Origin: a virus
DNA: 26,256 bases
IMG/VR virus record: IMGVR_UViG_3300009788_000277
Coordinates: 1 to 26,256 of that record
Reading direction: 5' to 3' (one strand)
The notes below the pieces were generated by a model that was not told where the DNA came from, searched no databases, and saw nothing but the letters and a program-made list of their open reading frames with translations. Positions 4,583 through 11,713 of this stretch are shown here, piece after piece. How positions within the stretch are numbered: position 1 is the first letter of the stretch; every line of letters begins with the position of its first letter. The translations under genes and the position numbers were made by a program.

Positions 4583-4948
4583 TTACTCTGTAGGCTCCTC
4601 ATTGATCTGCGTCTTAATCCGCACCAGCCAGCCAACACCACTGTTCGTGTCCGTCTGGTAGTGCAGCGTTGTGTACCCGTTCGGTATCTGTATCTCAATG
4701 CTGTGGCCAATCCCCACTGCCCACCGGATATTAGTCGCGGTCGCGGTCGTGGCCAATCCGAATAGGAACGCGCCTGTCTTAGTGCAGGTAAATCTATATC
4801 GAGCACCAGCTACGACTGTGGCCGTGGTGTTTGTGGCCGCACTCCCATTGGTCAGTTTTTGGCTCGTTGCCCCCGTGCCTATAATTGGCTGACTCTGGCC
4901 GGGGCTTGGGCTGGTATTGAATCCACCATTATCTATTGGTAATCCCAT
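4583..4948 (-). CDS. Phage structural or decoration-like protein, 121 aa
   Basis: A 121-residue protein rich in Thr, Ala and Gly. The N-terminal 30 residues are low-complexity (NGGFNTSPSPGQSQPIIGTG). The body (VVAGARYRFTCTKTGAFLFG, then HSIEIQIPNGYTTLHYQTDT) reads as a compact beta-sandwich of the kind seen in small head-decoration or tail-associated virion proteins. An AGGAG Shine-Dalgarno lies 8 nt before ATG 4948. Assignment as structural is inference from composition and from its place in the late arm; no active-site motif is present. Confidence 0.55.
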   Translation of the reverse strand: MGLPIDNGGFNTSPSPGQSQPIIGTGATSQKLTNGSAATNTTATVVAGARYRFTCTKTGAFLFGLATTATATNIRWAVGIGHSIEIQIPNGYTTLHYQTDTNSGVGWLVRIKTQINEEPTE

Positions 4949-4966
4949 GTTATTTTCTCCTATTAT

Positions 4967-5314
4967 TTATGACGTATATGATCTCTCTATCTTCAATGGT
5001 ATTGGTGAGCCAGCAGTCCATTTACCCCCTCGTATAGTTCCATCAGGATACCATACGAGGCTCTGGCCTTTTTTGATGGGTTCGAGGCAATACACCATAG
5101 TATACACGTGCCAAGAAAGATTATACTCAATATTATAACAACACATTGGTCCTGGGCCAGTATAAATCTGACACCATCCCACTGGGTAGTCATACCGAGC
5201 CACACCATACCACACGGCCCTGTCAGTCTCGACCTCCTTAACTTCCACCCGCTCGGCTACCAGACCCACGAATGGGGCCAATATCGCTGTCTTGAGTATT
5301 TCACGTCTGTTCAT
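4967..5314 (-). CDS. Small exported protein with twin-arginine signal, 115 aa
   Basis: The protein opens with MNRREILKTAILAPFVGLVA, which has the two arginines (R3-R4), the following x-hydrophobic-L-K pattern and a hydrophobic core of a Tat signal. The mature part has four cysteines (including a CC pair) and several aromatics (YPVGWCQIYTGPGPMCCYNI). It should be exported folded across the inner membrane if the host Tat machinery recognises it. AAAGGGGAACTGATATG precedes the start, the cassette shared with neighbours. A second, unrelated Tat-signal protein lies in the right arm at 19976. Function unknown. Confidence 0.6.
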   Translation of the reverse strand: MNRREILKTAILAPFVGLVAERVEVKEVETDRAVWYGVARYDYPVGWCQIYTGPGPMCCYNIEYNLSWHVYTMVYCLEPIKKGQSLVWYPDGTIRGGKWTAGSPIPLKIERSYTS

Positions 5315-5326
5315 ATCAGTTCCCCT

Positions 5327-5539
5327 TTATTTACTCTGTTTACCCGCGTGTCTCCGCAACTGTCCTGTCGTTCGATTATTCCTATGAAATTTGGCCTCCA
5401 GTTTGCCTTTTCGCACTCGGAAACTTATATCATGGGTCAAATAACAGTCGCAACATGCCAGCTTCATTCCAGTTTTGGGCATGTTAATCCATTCTCCATC
5501 CCATACTTGTTCGTATGTCACTGCTGTTTTGGCTGTCAT
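5327..5539 (-). CDS. Small phage protein with CCDC motif, 70 aa
   Basis: A 70-residue protein with the conserved-looking core MKLACCDCYLTHDISFRVRK and a basic C-terminus (KFHRNNRTTGQLRRHAGKQSK). I have seen this type (ACCDC..H...F) in many phage early and late operons, with no known function; the cysteines and His may bind metal. The start is ATG 5539. Its Shine-Dalgarno, GGTGAT, is formed by the 3' acceptor strand and discriminator of the tRNA-like structure immediately upstream, so access to this start may depend on that fold. Confidence 0.65.
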   Translation of the reverse strand: MTAKTAVTYEQVWDGEWINMPKTGMKLACCDCYLTHDISFRVRKGKLEAKFHRNNRTTGQLRRHAGKQSK

Positions 5540-5541
5540 AT

Positions 5542-5599
5542 CACCGGGCCAGGGAATTGAACCCCGCAGCGTCCTGACTGGCCATCTCCAGTGCCCGGT
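5542..5599 (-). ncRNA. tRNA-like cloverleaf, 58 nt, lacking normal central arms
   Basis: On the minus strand a 7-bp acceptor-like stem pairs ACCGGGC (5593-5599) with GCCCGGT (5543-5549), all Watson-Crick. A complete T-arm follows tRNA rules: CGGGG, loop TTCAATT, CCCTG, containing the B-box-like GGTTCAATTCC. Between them only 26 nt remain. They fold without spare bases into two hairpins: ACTGG/CCAGT with loop AGATGG, and CAG/CTG with loop GACG. A normal tRNA has about 41 nt there, so no standard anticodon arm exists and no CCA is encoded. It starts 3 nt after the stop of the 43-aa gene and ends 2 nt before the next ATG. It could be a degraded tRNA or a tRNA-mimicking translational control element. 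Confidence 0.5.
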
Positions 5600-5602
5600 A
5601 TA

Positions 5603-5734
5603 TCAGAGCGGTAAGGATTGTCCACCTATTGTAGCGCAACACGCCGCCGCTCTGTTACTATTAGCCTGAGCCGACTCCGCAGAGTACACGCCCTGGCCTG
5701 TTGAGGACTGTTGCCCTCTATATCTACCGAACAT
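5603..5734 (-). CDS. Small hypothetical protein, 43 aa, first gene of left arm
   Basis: The product begins MFGRYRGQQSSTGQGVYSAE and continues with Ala/Asn-rich sequence ending GGQSLPL. I chose ATG 5734 because a perfect AGGAGG lies directly before it. Longer in-frame starts upstream would run through the 12-bp repeats and add a repeated MEFY peptide, which looks accidental. No family recognised. It is the first gene transcribed to the left from the central region, and the tRNA-like element follows 3 nt after its stop. Confidence 0.55.
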   Translation of the reverse strand: MFGRYRGQQSSTGQGVYSAESAQANSNRAAACCATIGGQSLPL

Positions 5735-5760
5735 TTCCCTCCTGAGCCAGTGTTTTGGCC

Positions 5761-5820
5761 AAAATTCCATATAAAATTCCATATAAAATTCCATATAAAA
5801 TTCCATATAAAATTCCATAT
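5761..5820. repeat. Five perfect 12-bp tandem repeats
   Basis: The unit AAAATTCCATAT occurs five times without a mismatch, in phase, directly upstream of the leftward operon. Just before it lies a 12-bp palindrome TTTTGGCCAAAA (5753-5764). The number of identical copies suggests recent expansion or active selection, as for protein-binding iterons. On the minus strand a frame starting at ATG 5825 and ending at TAG 5724-5726 would read the repeats as YGIL units (33 aa), but no Shine-Dalgarno is at the right distance. Confidence 0.9.
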
Positions 5821-6184
5821 CTCATTTTTGACCAGTGGGTGTCAGAGACTCCTTAAATTAAACCAAATTAAACCAAATTAGATTAGATGGCCAACCCATA
5901 TAACACACGATTTGGCCTGTTTTGTGTTCAAAATGGTTCTTACATGTGATGAGCATCTCATCTACTGTATTTTTATCCCACCTATTTTTGGCCGGTGGGT
6001 GTCACTCGATTTGGCGTTTTTTGTGCTGGCCGGCGGGGTCCGAGAGGGGGGAGGGGACTCCGGCCTGGCCAAATCCGAGGGTGGGACCCCCCACCCATAC
6101 CCGATACAGGCCCGATACAGGCCCGATACAGGCCTTGCCTATACGTGCCCCTACAAGCTCGCTGCTGCCCGTCTAATGGACGAT
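5821..6184. other. Gene-poor intergenic DNA with degenerate duplications
   Basis: No convincing gene. The 10-bp unit AACCAAATTA occurs twice (5861-5880), with a partial third copy before it. A 21-nt element ending GTGGGTGTCA occurs at 5824-5844 and, with two changes, at 5984-6004, exactly 160 bp later. CGATTTGGC recurs at 5908 and 6007. A GC-rich hairpin with arms GGGTGGG and CCCACCC lies at 6079-6096. A rightward frame at 5912-6250 stays open but runs through repeats and palindromes and lacks a ribosome-binding site. Confidence 0.6.
6100..6132. repeat. Three 11-bp tandem repeats
   Basis: CCCGATACAGG is repeated three times exactly. It sits between the GC-rich hairpin at 6079-6096 and the inverted-repeat array. 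The related string CCGATACAGGG recurs at 6877-6887 in the leader RNA, so it may be a binding site. Confidence 0.85.
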
Positions 6185-6371
6185 CTCCATGCCATGCGTA
6201 TGGAGGCGGCTATAGTATCAGGGGGCAAGTGTTACACTTGTAACAGTTGATCTGGACACCACCGATACGACAAGTTGTCGTACCATAATAGGATTACAAC
6301 TGTAATCGTAGTGTACTACGTCAAGTAGTACAATTGTACGAAGGTCTTCGTAGGAGTTAGTTTATCCTAAC
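6185..6371. repeat. Array of consecutive inverted repeats with different arms
   Basis: At least eight inverted repeats follow each other: CTCCAT/ATGGAG (6185-6205), TGTTACA/TGTAACA (6230-6245), TACGACAA/TTGTCGTA (6266-6282), GATTACA/TGTAATC (6292-6307), GTAGT/ACTAC (6308-6319), TGTACTAC/GTAGTACA (6312-6332), the perfect palindrome GTACAATTGTAC (6328-6339), TACGAAG/CTTCGTA (6337-6352) and GTTAG/CTAAC (6356-6371). Several have 7-bp arms and a 2-nt centre, and from 6292 they abut or overlap. Arm sequences differ, so this is not one repeated operator. No coding frame explains it. Plausible roles are a structured replication origin or a hairpin-rich transcript. Confidence 0.8.
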
Positions 6372-6376
6372 AATTA

Positions 6377-6696
6377 CATATGTAGGGCTTTAGGTATGGT
6401 GCAGGTTTTTCCAGAGATTAGATTCTCTAAATAAAACTCAAGTTAGCCTATAGGTTCTGCACCATATGTAGGTAGGTACATAGGTAAACGTACATCTAAT
6501 GTGTCGTTTAGTAAGACTAATATAGTATTATACGTACATATGTAGGTAGGTAGGTATGGTGTAGGTTTATACACATAACTTTAAAAAATATTAGAGAATC
6601 TAAAGTCTGTAAAAAACCATAGCATATGTAGGTAGGTACATATATAAAACTGAGTATTATATCGGGTAAAGTCTGACAAACCAGGTGTCTAATCGC
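6377..6696. repeat. Diverged 160-bp tandem duplication with CATATGTAGG iterons
   Basis: CATATGTAGG occurs at 6377, 6463, 6537 and 6623, spaced 86, 74 and 86 bp, which means a 160-bp unit repeated twice. The unit heads match best: CATATGTAGGTAGGTACATA is identical at 6463 and 6623, and TAGGTATGGTG-AGGTTT recurs at 6391 and 6551. Within the first unit TATGGTGCAG pairs with CTGCACCATA about 50 bp away. GATTCTCTAA (6421) appears as its exact reverse complement at 6591. An AT-rich palindrome TAAAATATATTTTA follows at 6715-6728. Iterons beside AT-rich DNA suggest an origin or a control region. Confidence 0.75.
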
Positions 6697-6792
6697 TCGG
6701 CACTGATGATAAAATAAAATATATTTTAGGATGTAAATACCGTCTGATACTGGGGTTATAGTCTGACTCTGATATTTATTCGAGAAAAAGAC

Positions 6793-6832
6793 TTGACAAA
6801 ATACAGTTTTTGTCTATAATTAGGTATAGACA
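6793..6832 (+). promoter_or_regulatory. Consensus sigma70 promoter with overlapping palindromic operator
   Basis: TTGACA (6793-6798) and TATAAT (6815-6820) match both consensus boxes exactly with a 16-bp spacer, pointing rightward. A perfect inverted repeat, TGTCTATA (6811-6818) and TATAGACA (6825-6832) with a 6-bp centre, overlaps the -10 box and the expected start site, the usual place for a repressor operator. A second TATAAT at 6833-6838 with TTGTCT 17 bp upstream could be a weaker tandem promoter. This is the obvious promoter for the rightward genes; the cognate repressor is not identified here. Confidence 0.8.
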
Positions 6833-6940
6833 TATAATGCTATTTGACAATTGTAAAATAGGAGGTTATCATGTAACCGATACAGGGAAAGCCTGTAGTC
6901 AATGACCGTTATTCTTGATGGTCATTGACTATGAGTTTTT
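6827..6940 (+). ncRNA. Leader RNA with start-stop minigene and hairpins
   Basis: From the likely start near 6827 to the T-run at 6940, about 114 nt carry no normal gene. AGGAGG (6860-6865), spacer TTATC, then ATG-TAA (6871-6876) form an ideal initiation site followed at once by a stop. GGTTA/TAACC (6864-6878) can fold around that ATG, and TACAGG/CCTGTA (6881-6897) forms the next hairpin. Then comes the terminator-like hairpin. The element could be a small RNA or an attenuator controlling the early operon. Confidence 0.5.
6894..6940 (+). terminator. Terminator or attenuator hairpin before first rightward gene
   Basis: AGTCAATGACC (6897-6907) pairs perfectly with GGTCATTGACT (6920-6930) across a 12-nt loop. 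The stem can grow by three outer pairs (two of them wobbles) to 6894 and 6933. TTTTT follows at 6936-6940. The outer bases overlap the 3' strand of the preceding TACAGG/CCTGTA hairpin, so the two structures compete slightly. It lies 24 nt before the first rightward ATG, which fits attenuation. Confidence 0.6.
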
Positions 6941-6963
6941 AATATTTATTGGAGATTGAGATT

Positions 6964-7173
6964 ATGAAACGAGTGTCAAAAATTATAGAATATCAAAAAG
7001 TAATTAACCGACTTGTTGCAATACGAGATTATGACTTATTTGAACTTGAGAATATTTGTTTGTGTAGAATTGGTCATATTGCTTGTTGGGAAAGTTTTGT
7101 TCATGCTTTGGAAGATTTACTTGCAAATGGCAGTATTAATAAAGTCGGAAACGTAGTATTTAAGAAACGATAA
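6964..7173 (+). CDS. Small early protein, possible winged-helix, 69 aa
   Basis: A 69-residue protein starting MKRVSKIIEYQKVINRLVAI. The second half (HIACWESFVHALEDLLANGS, then INKVGNVVFKKR) has the rhythm of a recognition helix followed by a beta wing, so a small winged helix-turn-helix is possible but unproven. I start at ATG 6964 rather than an in-frame TTG 15 nt earlier because the GGAG Shine-Dalgarno would lie inside the longer version. The 22-nt leader before the ATG is repeated almost exactly before the next gene. Confidence 0.6.
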   Translation: MKRVSKIIEYQKVINRLVAIRDYDLFELENICLCRIGHIACWESFVHALEDLLANGSINKVGNVVFKKR

Positions 7174-11347: not shown

Positions 11348-11713
11348 ATGAAACGAAATCTAACTATCAACGAAGAAAAAGCCATACGTTTGGTACACCA
11401 TGAGTTCGGGGGCAAGGGTATTAAAGAAGCAGCCGCGTGCATGGGCCGGTCGATAAGAGCCGTGCAACGGCTGCTTAATAGTGCGAATAAAAAAGCCCCG
11501 CAGATATTCCCGATCCTCACTCCCCAACATCGGGCAATTTTGTCTATGTACGACCAACACATGAGCCGTGCATCTATAATGGCTGGGTTGGGTATTACAA
11601 AAAAGGTACTGGCTCGTGAGGTGGAGTCTCTACGATCATGGGGATTTTTATTCAATCGTGTTATGAACCAGTACCGGCCTTCGATGGATGGTCGGGTTCG
11701 GGAGAGGTTTTAA
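11348..11713 (+). CDS. Helix-turn-helix protein, 121 aa
   Basis: A 121-residue basic protein with two HTH-like stretches. The first is KGIKEAAACMGRSIRAVQRL (about 23-42). The second, about 73-100 (SRASIMAGLGITKKVLAREV), is followed by RSWGFL. This resembles sigma-like or Trp-repressor-like winged DNA-binding modules used by phages. GCAGGAGAAC precedes ATG 11348. It is the first gene after the switch-like hairpin and may regulate this operon or the left arm; that is inference. Confidence 0.65.
   Translation: MKRNLTINEEKAIRLVHHEFGGKGIKEAAACMGRSIRAVQRLLNSANKKAPQIFPILTPQHRAILSMYDQHMSRASIMAGLGITKKVLAREVESLRSWGFLFNRVMNQYRPSMDGRVRERF

Follow-up and report, generated by a model that had tools for sequence, protein, structure and literature searches.

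What role is played by the tight run of inverted repeats at positions 6185–6371 of the viral record IMGVR_UViG_3300009788_000277? We analysed positions 1–26,256 of this record (the whole 26,256-bp stretch is called the window below), starting from a preliminary description that had proposed selection for cruciform or hairpin formation, for instance at an origin, or for a structured transcript.

Extent and setting of the array

A mechanical count over 6185–6371 returned seven inverted repeats with arms of at least 6 bp and a centre of up to 3 nt, all inside 6226–6352, and eight once centres of up to 8 nt were allowed; a ninth, weaker one (arm 5, centre 6) lies at 6356–6371. The report of eight or more inverted repeats in under 190 bp is thus borne out. 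The dense array proper (6226–6352, no strand assigned) holds seven repeats with arms of at least 6 bp and centres of 0–2 nt, plus one with 8-bp arms and a 5-nt centre. Repeats are present from 6185 onwards, a start explained by a perfect CTCCAT/ATGGAG pair with a 9-nt centre (6185–6205), but the dense part is restricted to 6226–6352. Where the preliminary description gave many 7–8-bp arms around a 2-nt centre, a 2-nt centre is present in four dyads (three with 7-bp arms, one with 6-bp arms), and the centres of the others measure 0, 1, 1 and 5 nt.

From left to right, CAAGTGT-t-ACACTTG (6226–6240) overlaps TGTTACA-ct-TGTAACA (6230–6245), which contains the operator-like core TACANNTGTA at 6233–6242. 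The dyad TACGACAA-g-TTGTCGTA (6266–6282) lacks this core, and GATTACA-ac-TGTAATC (6292–6307) has it at 6295–6304. Next come CGTAGT-gt-ACTACG (6307–6320) and TGTACTAC-gtcaa-GTAGTACA (6312–6332), which overlaps the neighbouring dyads. The array ends with GTACAATTGTAC (6328–6339; core TACAATTGTA at 6329–6338) and TACGAAG-gt-CTTCGTA (6337–6352), the latter having its outer TACGA/TCGTA in common with 6266–6282. Most dyads in the array span 14–17 bp in total, a usual size for dimer sites.

Shuffles that keep the 1-, 2- or 3-mer composition gave means of 0.17–0.39 repeats against the seven observed, and seven was reached in none of 1000 shuffles of each type, which rules out a composition artefact as the source of the array. 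By type, the means were 0.17 for single letters, 0.21 for dinucleotides and 0.29 for trinucleotides. Equal density in shuffled sequence had been named beforehand as a possible refutation; the density was never equalled, and the non-randomness stands. In 187-nt steps, the array is the densest segment of the 26,256-bp record (seven dyads against a mean of 0.16), and of all 101 loci in the comparison (numbered with an L), the 100 other than L001, which is a copy of part of the window itself, reached at most four dyads in their best segment, compared with seven in the array. The inverted-repeat array is therefore non-random and far from chance.

The array sits in a 1.4-kb non-coding gap (5540–6963) that divides leftward from rightward operons, between the last gene of the former (5327–5539, minus strand) and the first gene of the latter (6964–7173, plus strand). 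On the leftward side lies a TerL-like gene (517–2445) of low identity to annotated terminases; the rightward genes include a RecG-like helicase, a family A DNA polymerase, a PD-(D/E)XK nuclease, an AAA protein and an N6/N4 methylase. A sigma-70-type promoter of the rightward operon (6793–6820, plus strand; 12/12 match to TTGACA-16-TATAAT) is found ~440 bp from the array, and the dyad TGTCTATA-attagg-TATAGACA (6811–6832) lies over its end. Beside the array there is one 9/12 promoter match (6189–6216), and such matches are no more numerous in the region than chance would give (9 found, 7.4 expected). The cumulative G-C curve reaches its minimum at 5982 and is almost flat to 6371; this is also where the genes change strand.

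Upstream of the leftward operon, the gap contains a conserved GC-rich element of ~73 bp (6019–6090, plus strand), defined by profile matches and an alignment of 14 members, all 14 of which keep GGT(N3)ACCC; the array lies ~135 bp beyond it. An iterated profile built from eight loci gave 18 matches at E<0.01 in 97 sequences (same-contig copies included; the search set omitted L001, L013, L015, L016 and L026). The element's consensus fold consists of four pairs without covariation and no Rfam family matched it; it may serve as a promoter, in packaging or as part of an origin. In L062 the element was matched by eye only and was not retrieved by the profile at E<0.5, and L013 was rejected as an element locus, because its match to the pattern lies within a coding region and is due to chance.

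Several other features were noticed in the gap. About five tandem copies of AAATTCCATAT occupy 5761–5820, and three of CCCGATACAGG occupy 6100–6132. To the right of the array, a tract of TATGTAGGTAGGTA-like repeats runs from 6376 to 6660, and a long imperfect inverted repeat pairs 6374–6404 with 6457–6487. A tRNA-like fold at 5543–5599 (minus strand) has a 7-bp acceptor-like stem, a T-arm (GGTTCAATTCC) and an anticodon arm that is just a stub; ARAGORN called no tRNA at this fold, and L003 and L017 have a T-arm-like motif in their equivalent gap.

A shared core and private arms

The core TACANNTGTA occurs just five times in the 26,256 bp of the window (6233, 6295, 6329, 6375 and 6535), against 0.52 expected for the whole window, and five copies were reached in none of 100 shuffles. 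All five fall within 312 bp (6233–6544), four of them within the array or at its margin; the core TACATATGTA at 6375–6384 and the outlying TACATATGTA at 6535–6544 show no further symmetry. Over all loci, TACANNTGTA totals 34 in 1.10 Mb, a figure in which the window's five are counted a second time through L001, which copies part of it. Across the window, the looser ACANNTGT shows no excess (12 copies against 8.75 expected).

Beyond the five cores the symmetry continues for 3, 3, 1, 0 and 0 bp with differing letters, so the full-length sites are not alike. There is likewise little in common among the outer arms at the first two core sites and the dyads at 6226, 6266, 6307, 6312 and 6337. When the four cores in 6220–6390 were held fixed and the remaining single letters shuffled, the seven, five and six dyads observed at three thresholds were reached in none of 5000 shuffles, and neither were the four, three and four dyads not centred on a core. 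Since the excess persists with the cores fixed, some of the "same shape, different sequence" pattern remains.

These results divide the earlier assertion that the arms share no sequence: wholly unrelated arms are rejected for the four or five TACANNTGTA sites, which cluster here against 0.52 expected in the whole window, yet most other arms do differ, and their excess survives the fixed-core shuffles (0 of 5000). The same four or five sites contradict the corollary that no single protein has a repeated operator here. A scan for dyads repeated in several copies within 400 bp, run over 96 sequences, recovered only the window (five copies) and L020 (three copies), and none of the 96 shuffled sequences; L001, L013, L015, L016, L024 and L026 had been dropped, since each either duplicates the window or another locus or is a chance match. 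The same dyad thus stands here in several clustered copies, as a repeated operator would.

Dyads in related phages

Relatives were drawn from a TerL scan, a helicase scan and one element pattern, giving ~100 loci. The nearest (L002) has a TerL 100% identical to that of the window, and by its coordinates the locus ends before the array. An 18-base exact array pattern retrieved 0 contigs, and a search with a neighbouring small protein retrieved four loci (L102–L105), which lack the core and gave no profile match better than E 4.3. In the relatives examined, the array pairings are absent and other dyads occupy the gap, none so densely. Relatives without these pairings had been named as a possible refutation of the hairpin proposal; their absence refutes it only in part, because the relatives compared are distant.

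The gap dyads of relatives include GTGTAACGA-t-TCGTTACAC in L008, CATTATCAG-g-CTGATAATG and CTACTACA-ac-TGTAGTAG in L014, the latter with the TACANNTGTA core, and TACACGAT-a-ATCGTGTA in L023. In the gap of L020, ATAAG-N5-CTTAT recurs in three copies 29 bp apart, as TATAAG-N5-CTTATA at 4901–4976; in both this set and the TACANNTGTA set of the window, the dyads are found in the part of the gap to the early side of the conserved element. Some dyads are shared between different relatives, as expected of regulator sites: CTGCCAT-N-ATGGCAG is present once in L039 and twice in L062, and TTGATNNNNATCAA, an FNR/CRP-type site, is common to L014 and L023 (L001, L013, L015, L016, L024, L026 and L070 were dropped from this count and from the open reading frame comparison below). 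The FNR-like dyad TGTTGAT-N4-ATCAACA was seen in these two different phages at ~1898 in L014, with further partial copies alongside, and at ~1363 in L023. In L062, many ATGAACGAT copies in both orientations lie beside a dyad group at 2410–2800, an origin-like arrangement. Palindromes in L041 (13433), L055 (15419) and L072 (15416) have a common core, GTAGTATATATACTAC, flanked by outer arms that match each other but are specific to each phage; here again a shared core is combined with private outer arms, with changes on both sides between phages.

Dyads with arms of at least 7 bp and centres of up to 4 nt occur at 0.572 per kb outside open reading frames of at least 100 aa and at 0.316 per kb inside them. 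Among 24 relatives, the early side of the conserved element holds 17 dyads in 10,391 bp (shuffle mean 3.93) and the late side 14 in 11,532 bp (shuffle mean 3.80); L017, L024, L084 and L091, which share a contig with or nearly copy other loci, were also dropped from this count. With enrichment on both sides of the element, and with the L071 cluster on the late side, an early-side dyad array conserved in relatives was rejected; dyad enrichment is instead a general property of these gaps. Within a 1.2-kb zone (arm at least 7, centre up to 8), the number of shuffles out of 200 that reached the observed count was mixed overall: 6 for L003, 1 for L008, 118 for L009, 16 for L014, 27 for L020 and 8 for L023.

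Hairpins, duplex sites and the probable role of the array

The array does fold better than its shuffles (z = −3.7 for plus-strand RNA, −4.1 for minus-strand RNA and −4.5 for plus-strand DNA), as the proposal of selected hairpins would have it. Any set of dyads would behave in this way, however, and both strands fold alike. A hairpin needs a loop of ~3–4 bases, so the loop letters are free. Of six array hairpins with stems of at least 6 bp, five have a loop of 3 or 4, and in 5/5 of these the dyad symmetry runs on into the unpairable loop, compared with 191 of 785 (24%) in the background over the loci (84+11 of 401 for loops of 4, 96 of 384 for loops of 3). L001, L015 and L016 were excluded from this background, which does contain other copies as well as the window. 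By arithmetic from it, 5/5 has a probability of ~0.001, or 0.004 if an overlapping pair is counted once. The centre symmetry, few as the sites are (five), favours duplex sites read by symmetrical dimers over hairpins or cruciforms. Hairpin selection would also not predict the common TACANNTGTA core, and Rfam returned no match at gathering score (one sub-threshold match, E 0.5, lies outside the array); no tRNA was found either. Selection for hairpins, whether in RNA, in single-stranded DNA or as cruciforms, is thus disfavoured, and we regard it as improbable.

It is unlikely, too, that the array forms part of a replication origin, with its dyads as initiator or helicase-loading sites and bidirectional replication starting from the gap. 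The skew minimum near the array, the repeat tracts flanking it on both sides and the ATGAACGAT repeats beside dyads in L062 would suit such an origin, but the switch in gene strand at the same point would by itself give such a skew, no initiator protein was recognised, and the array has no constant repeat unit except TACANNTGTA. Iteron-type origins resemble the locus in combining repeats with a skew minimum in a long gap; here, however, the array has no constant iteron and no initiator was recognised. A purely mutational account, in which inverted repeats that were once imperfect have been made perfect by replicative template switching and so take on a shape without selection, would explain the private perfect arms and the overlapping dyads that share a segment (6307–6332); quasi-palindrome mutation has been attributed to this process (PMC3820800). 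It leaves unexplained the five TACANNTGTA cores in one place and why the process would act at this one place in 26 kb, and we judge it very improbable.

The 10-base core of CopR/CopY and BlaI/MecI operators is identical to TACANNTGTA, present here in five copies. According to the CopR/CopY study (PMC7253601), the extended 16-base operator consensus is RNYKACANNTGTMRNY, and the ten bases of TACANNTGTA are necessary, not sufficient, and alone no reliable predictor of binding. Judged by eye from the flanks against this consensus, only one of the five core sites fits (6292–6307) and four miss it. A Pfam scan of 40 window proteins turned up no CopY/BlaI-type repressor, which leaves room for one encoded by the host. 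The array was therefore not assigned as a CopY/BlaI operator, which would need the extended consensus and a nearby repressor in addition to the core; the resemblance is one of site alone.

Phage genetic switches have multi-site operator regions, for example OR and OL of lambda, and the array resembles these in placing several dimer-size dyads in a gap between divergent operons. It differs in that only the 10-bp core is shared, several dyads have private arms, and the genes flanking the gap include no recognisable repressor. In L014 and L023 the equivalent gap holds the FNR/CRP-type site TTGATNNNNATCAA, a dyad comparable in size, which is absent from the window. No scanned window protein was recognised as binding the array; the clearest helix-turn-helix resemblance, below Pfam cut-offs, belongs to the protein encoded at 11348–11713, which is kept in relatives (34–55% identity in six listed loci of seven matches). 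This protein is the clearest candidate regulator found, without a tie to the array; its structure prediction without alignment (mean pLDDT 60) was left unused.

On the sequence evidence, we place slightly above even chances the reading that the array is a phage-specific cluster of operators in the control region between the divergent operons of a tailed phage; its palindromes most probably do not form hairpins but are bound by regulatory proteins acting in pairs. The absence of a recognised binding protein, the weak predictive value of the core alone, the chance level of the promoter match beside the array, dyad enrichment on both sides of the conserved element, the irregular spacing of the dyads, the distance of ~440 bp to the strong promoters, private outer arms (ACA, ATC) that would be unexpected in a repeated operator of one protein, and the lack of a repeated dyad set in most relatives of the 96-sequence scan count against an operator cluster. 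We infer protein binding, a dimeric state and regulation of transcription at the array as follows. A dimeric regulator would bind the 10-bp TACANNTGTA dyads as duplex, four of them in ~150 bp and a fifth 160 bp further on. One or more further dimers, or extended contacts of the first, may use other 14–17-bp dyads (6266, 6337 and 6307). Proteins on several neighbouring sites would then control the switch between the leftward operon, with terminase and presumably other late genes, and the rightward operon, with replication genes.

The array is ordinary in kind, with operator-like dyads in a phage control region, and unusual in its density and private outer arms. A broader and distinctly improbable idea is that the divergent-operon gap in this phage family is a hub that keeps its shape and place while its letters are free: each phage would have its own 14–20-bp dyads, partly for distinct host regulators (FNR-like and CopY/BlaI-like cores), and would thereby read or titrate several host factors. 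The private surplus of symmetry raises the question of whether several regulators act at one place or palindromes have been perfected by mutation. If the array is an operator cluster, it would mark, together with the conserved 73-bp element, the control region of an uncultured phage family.
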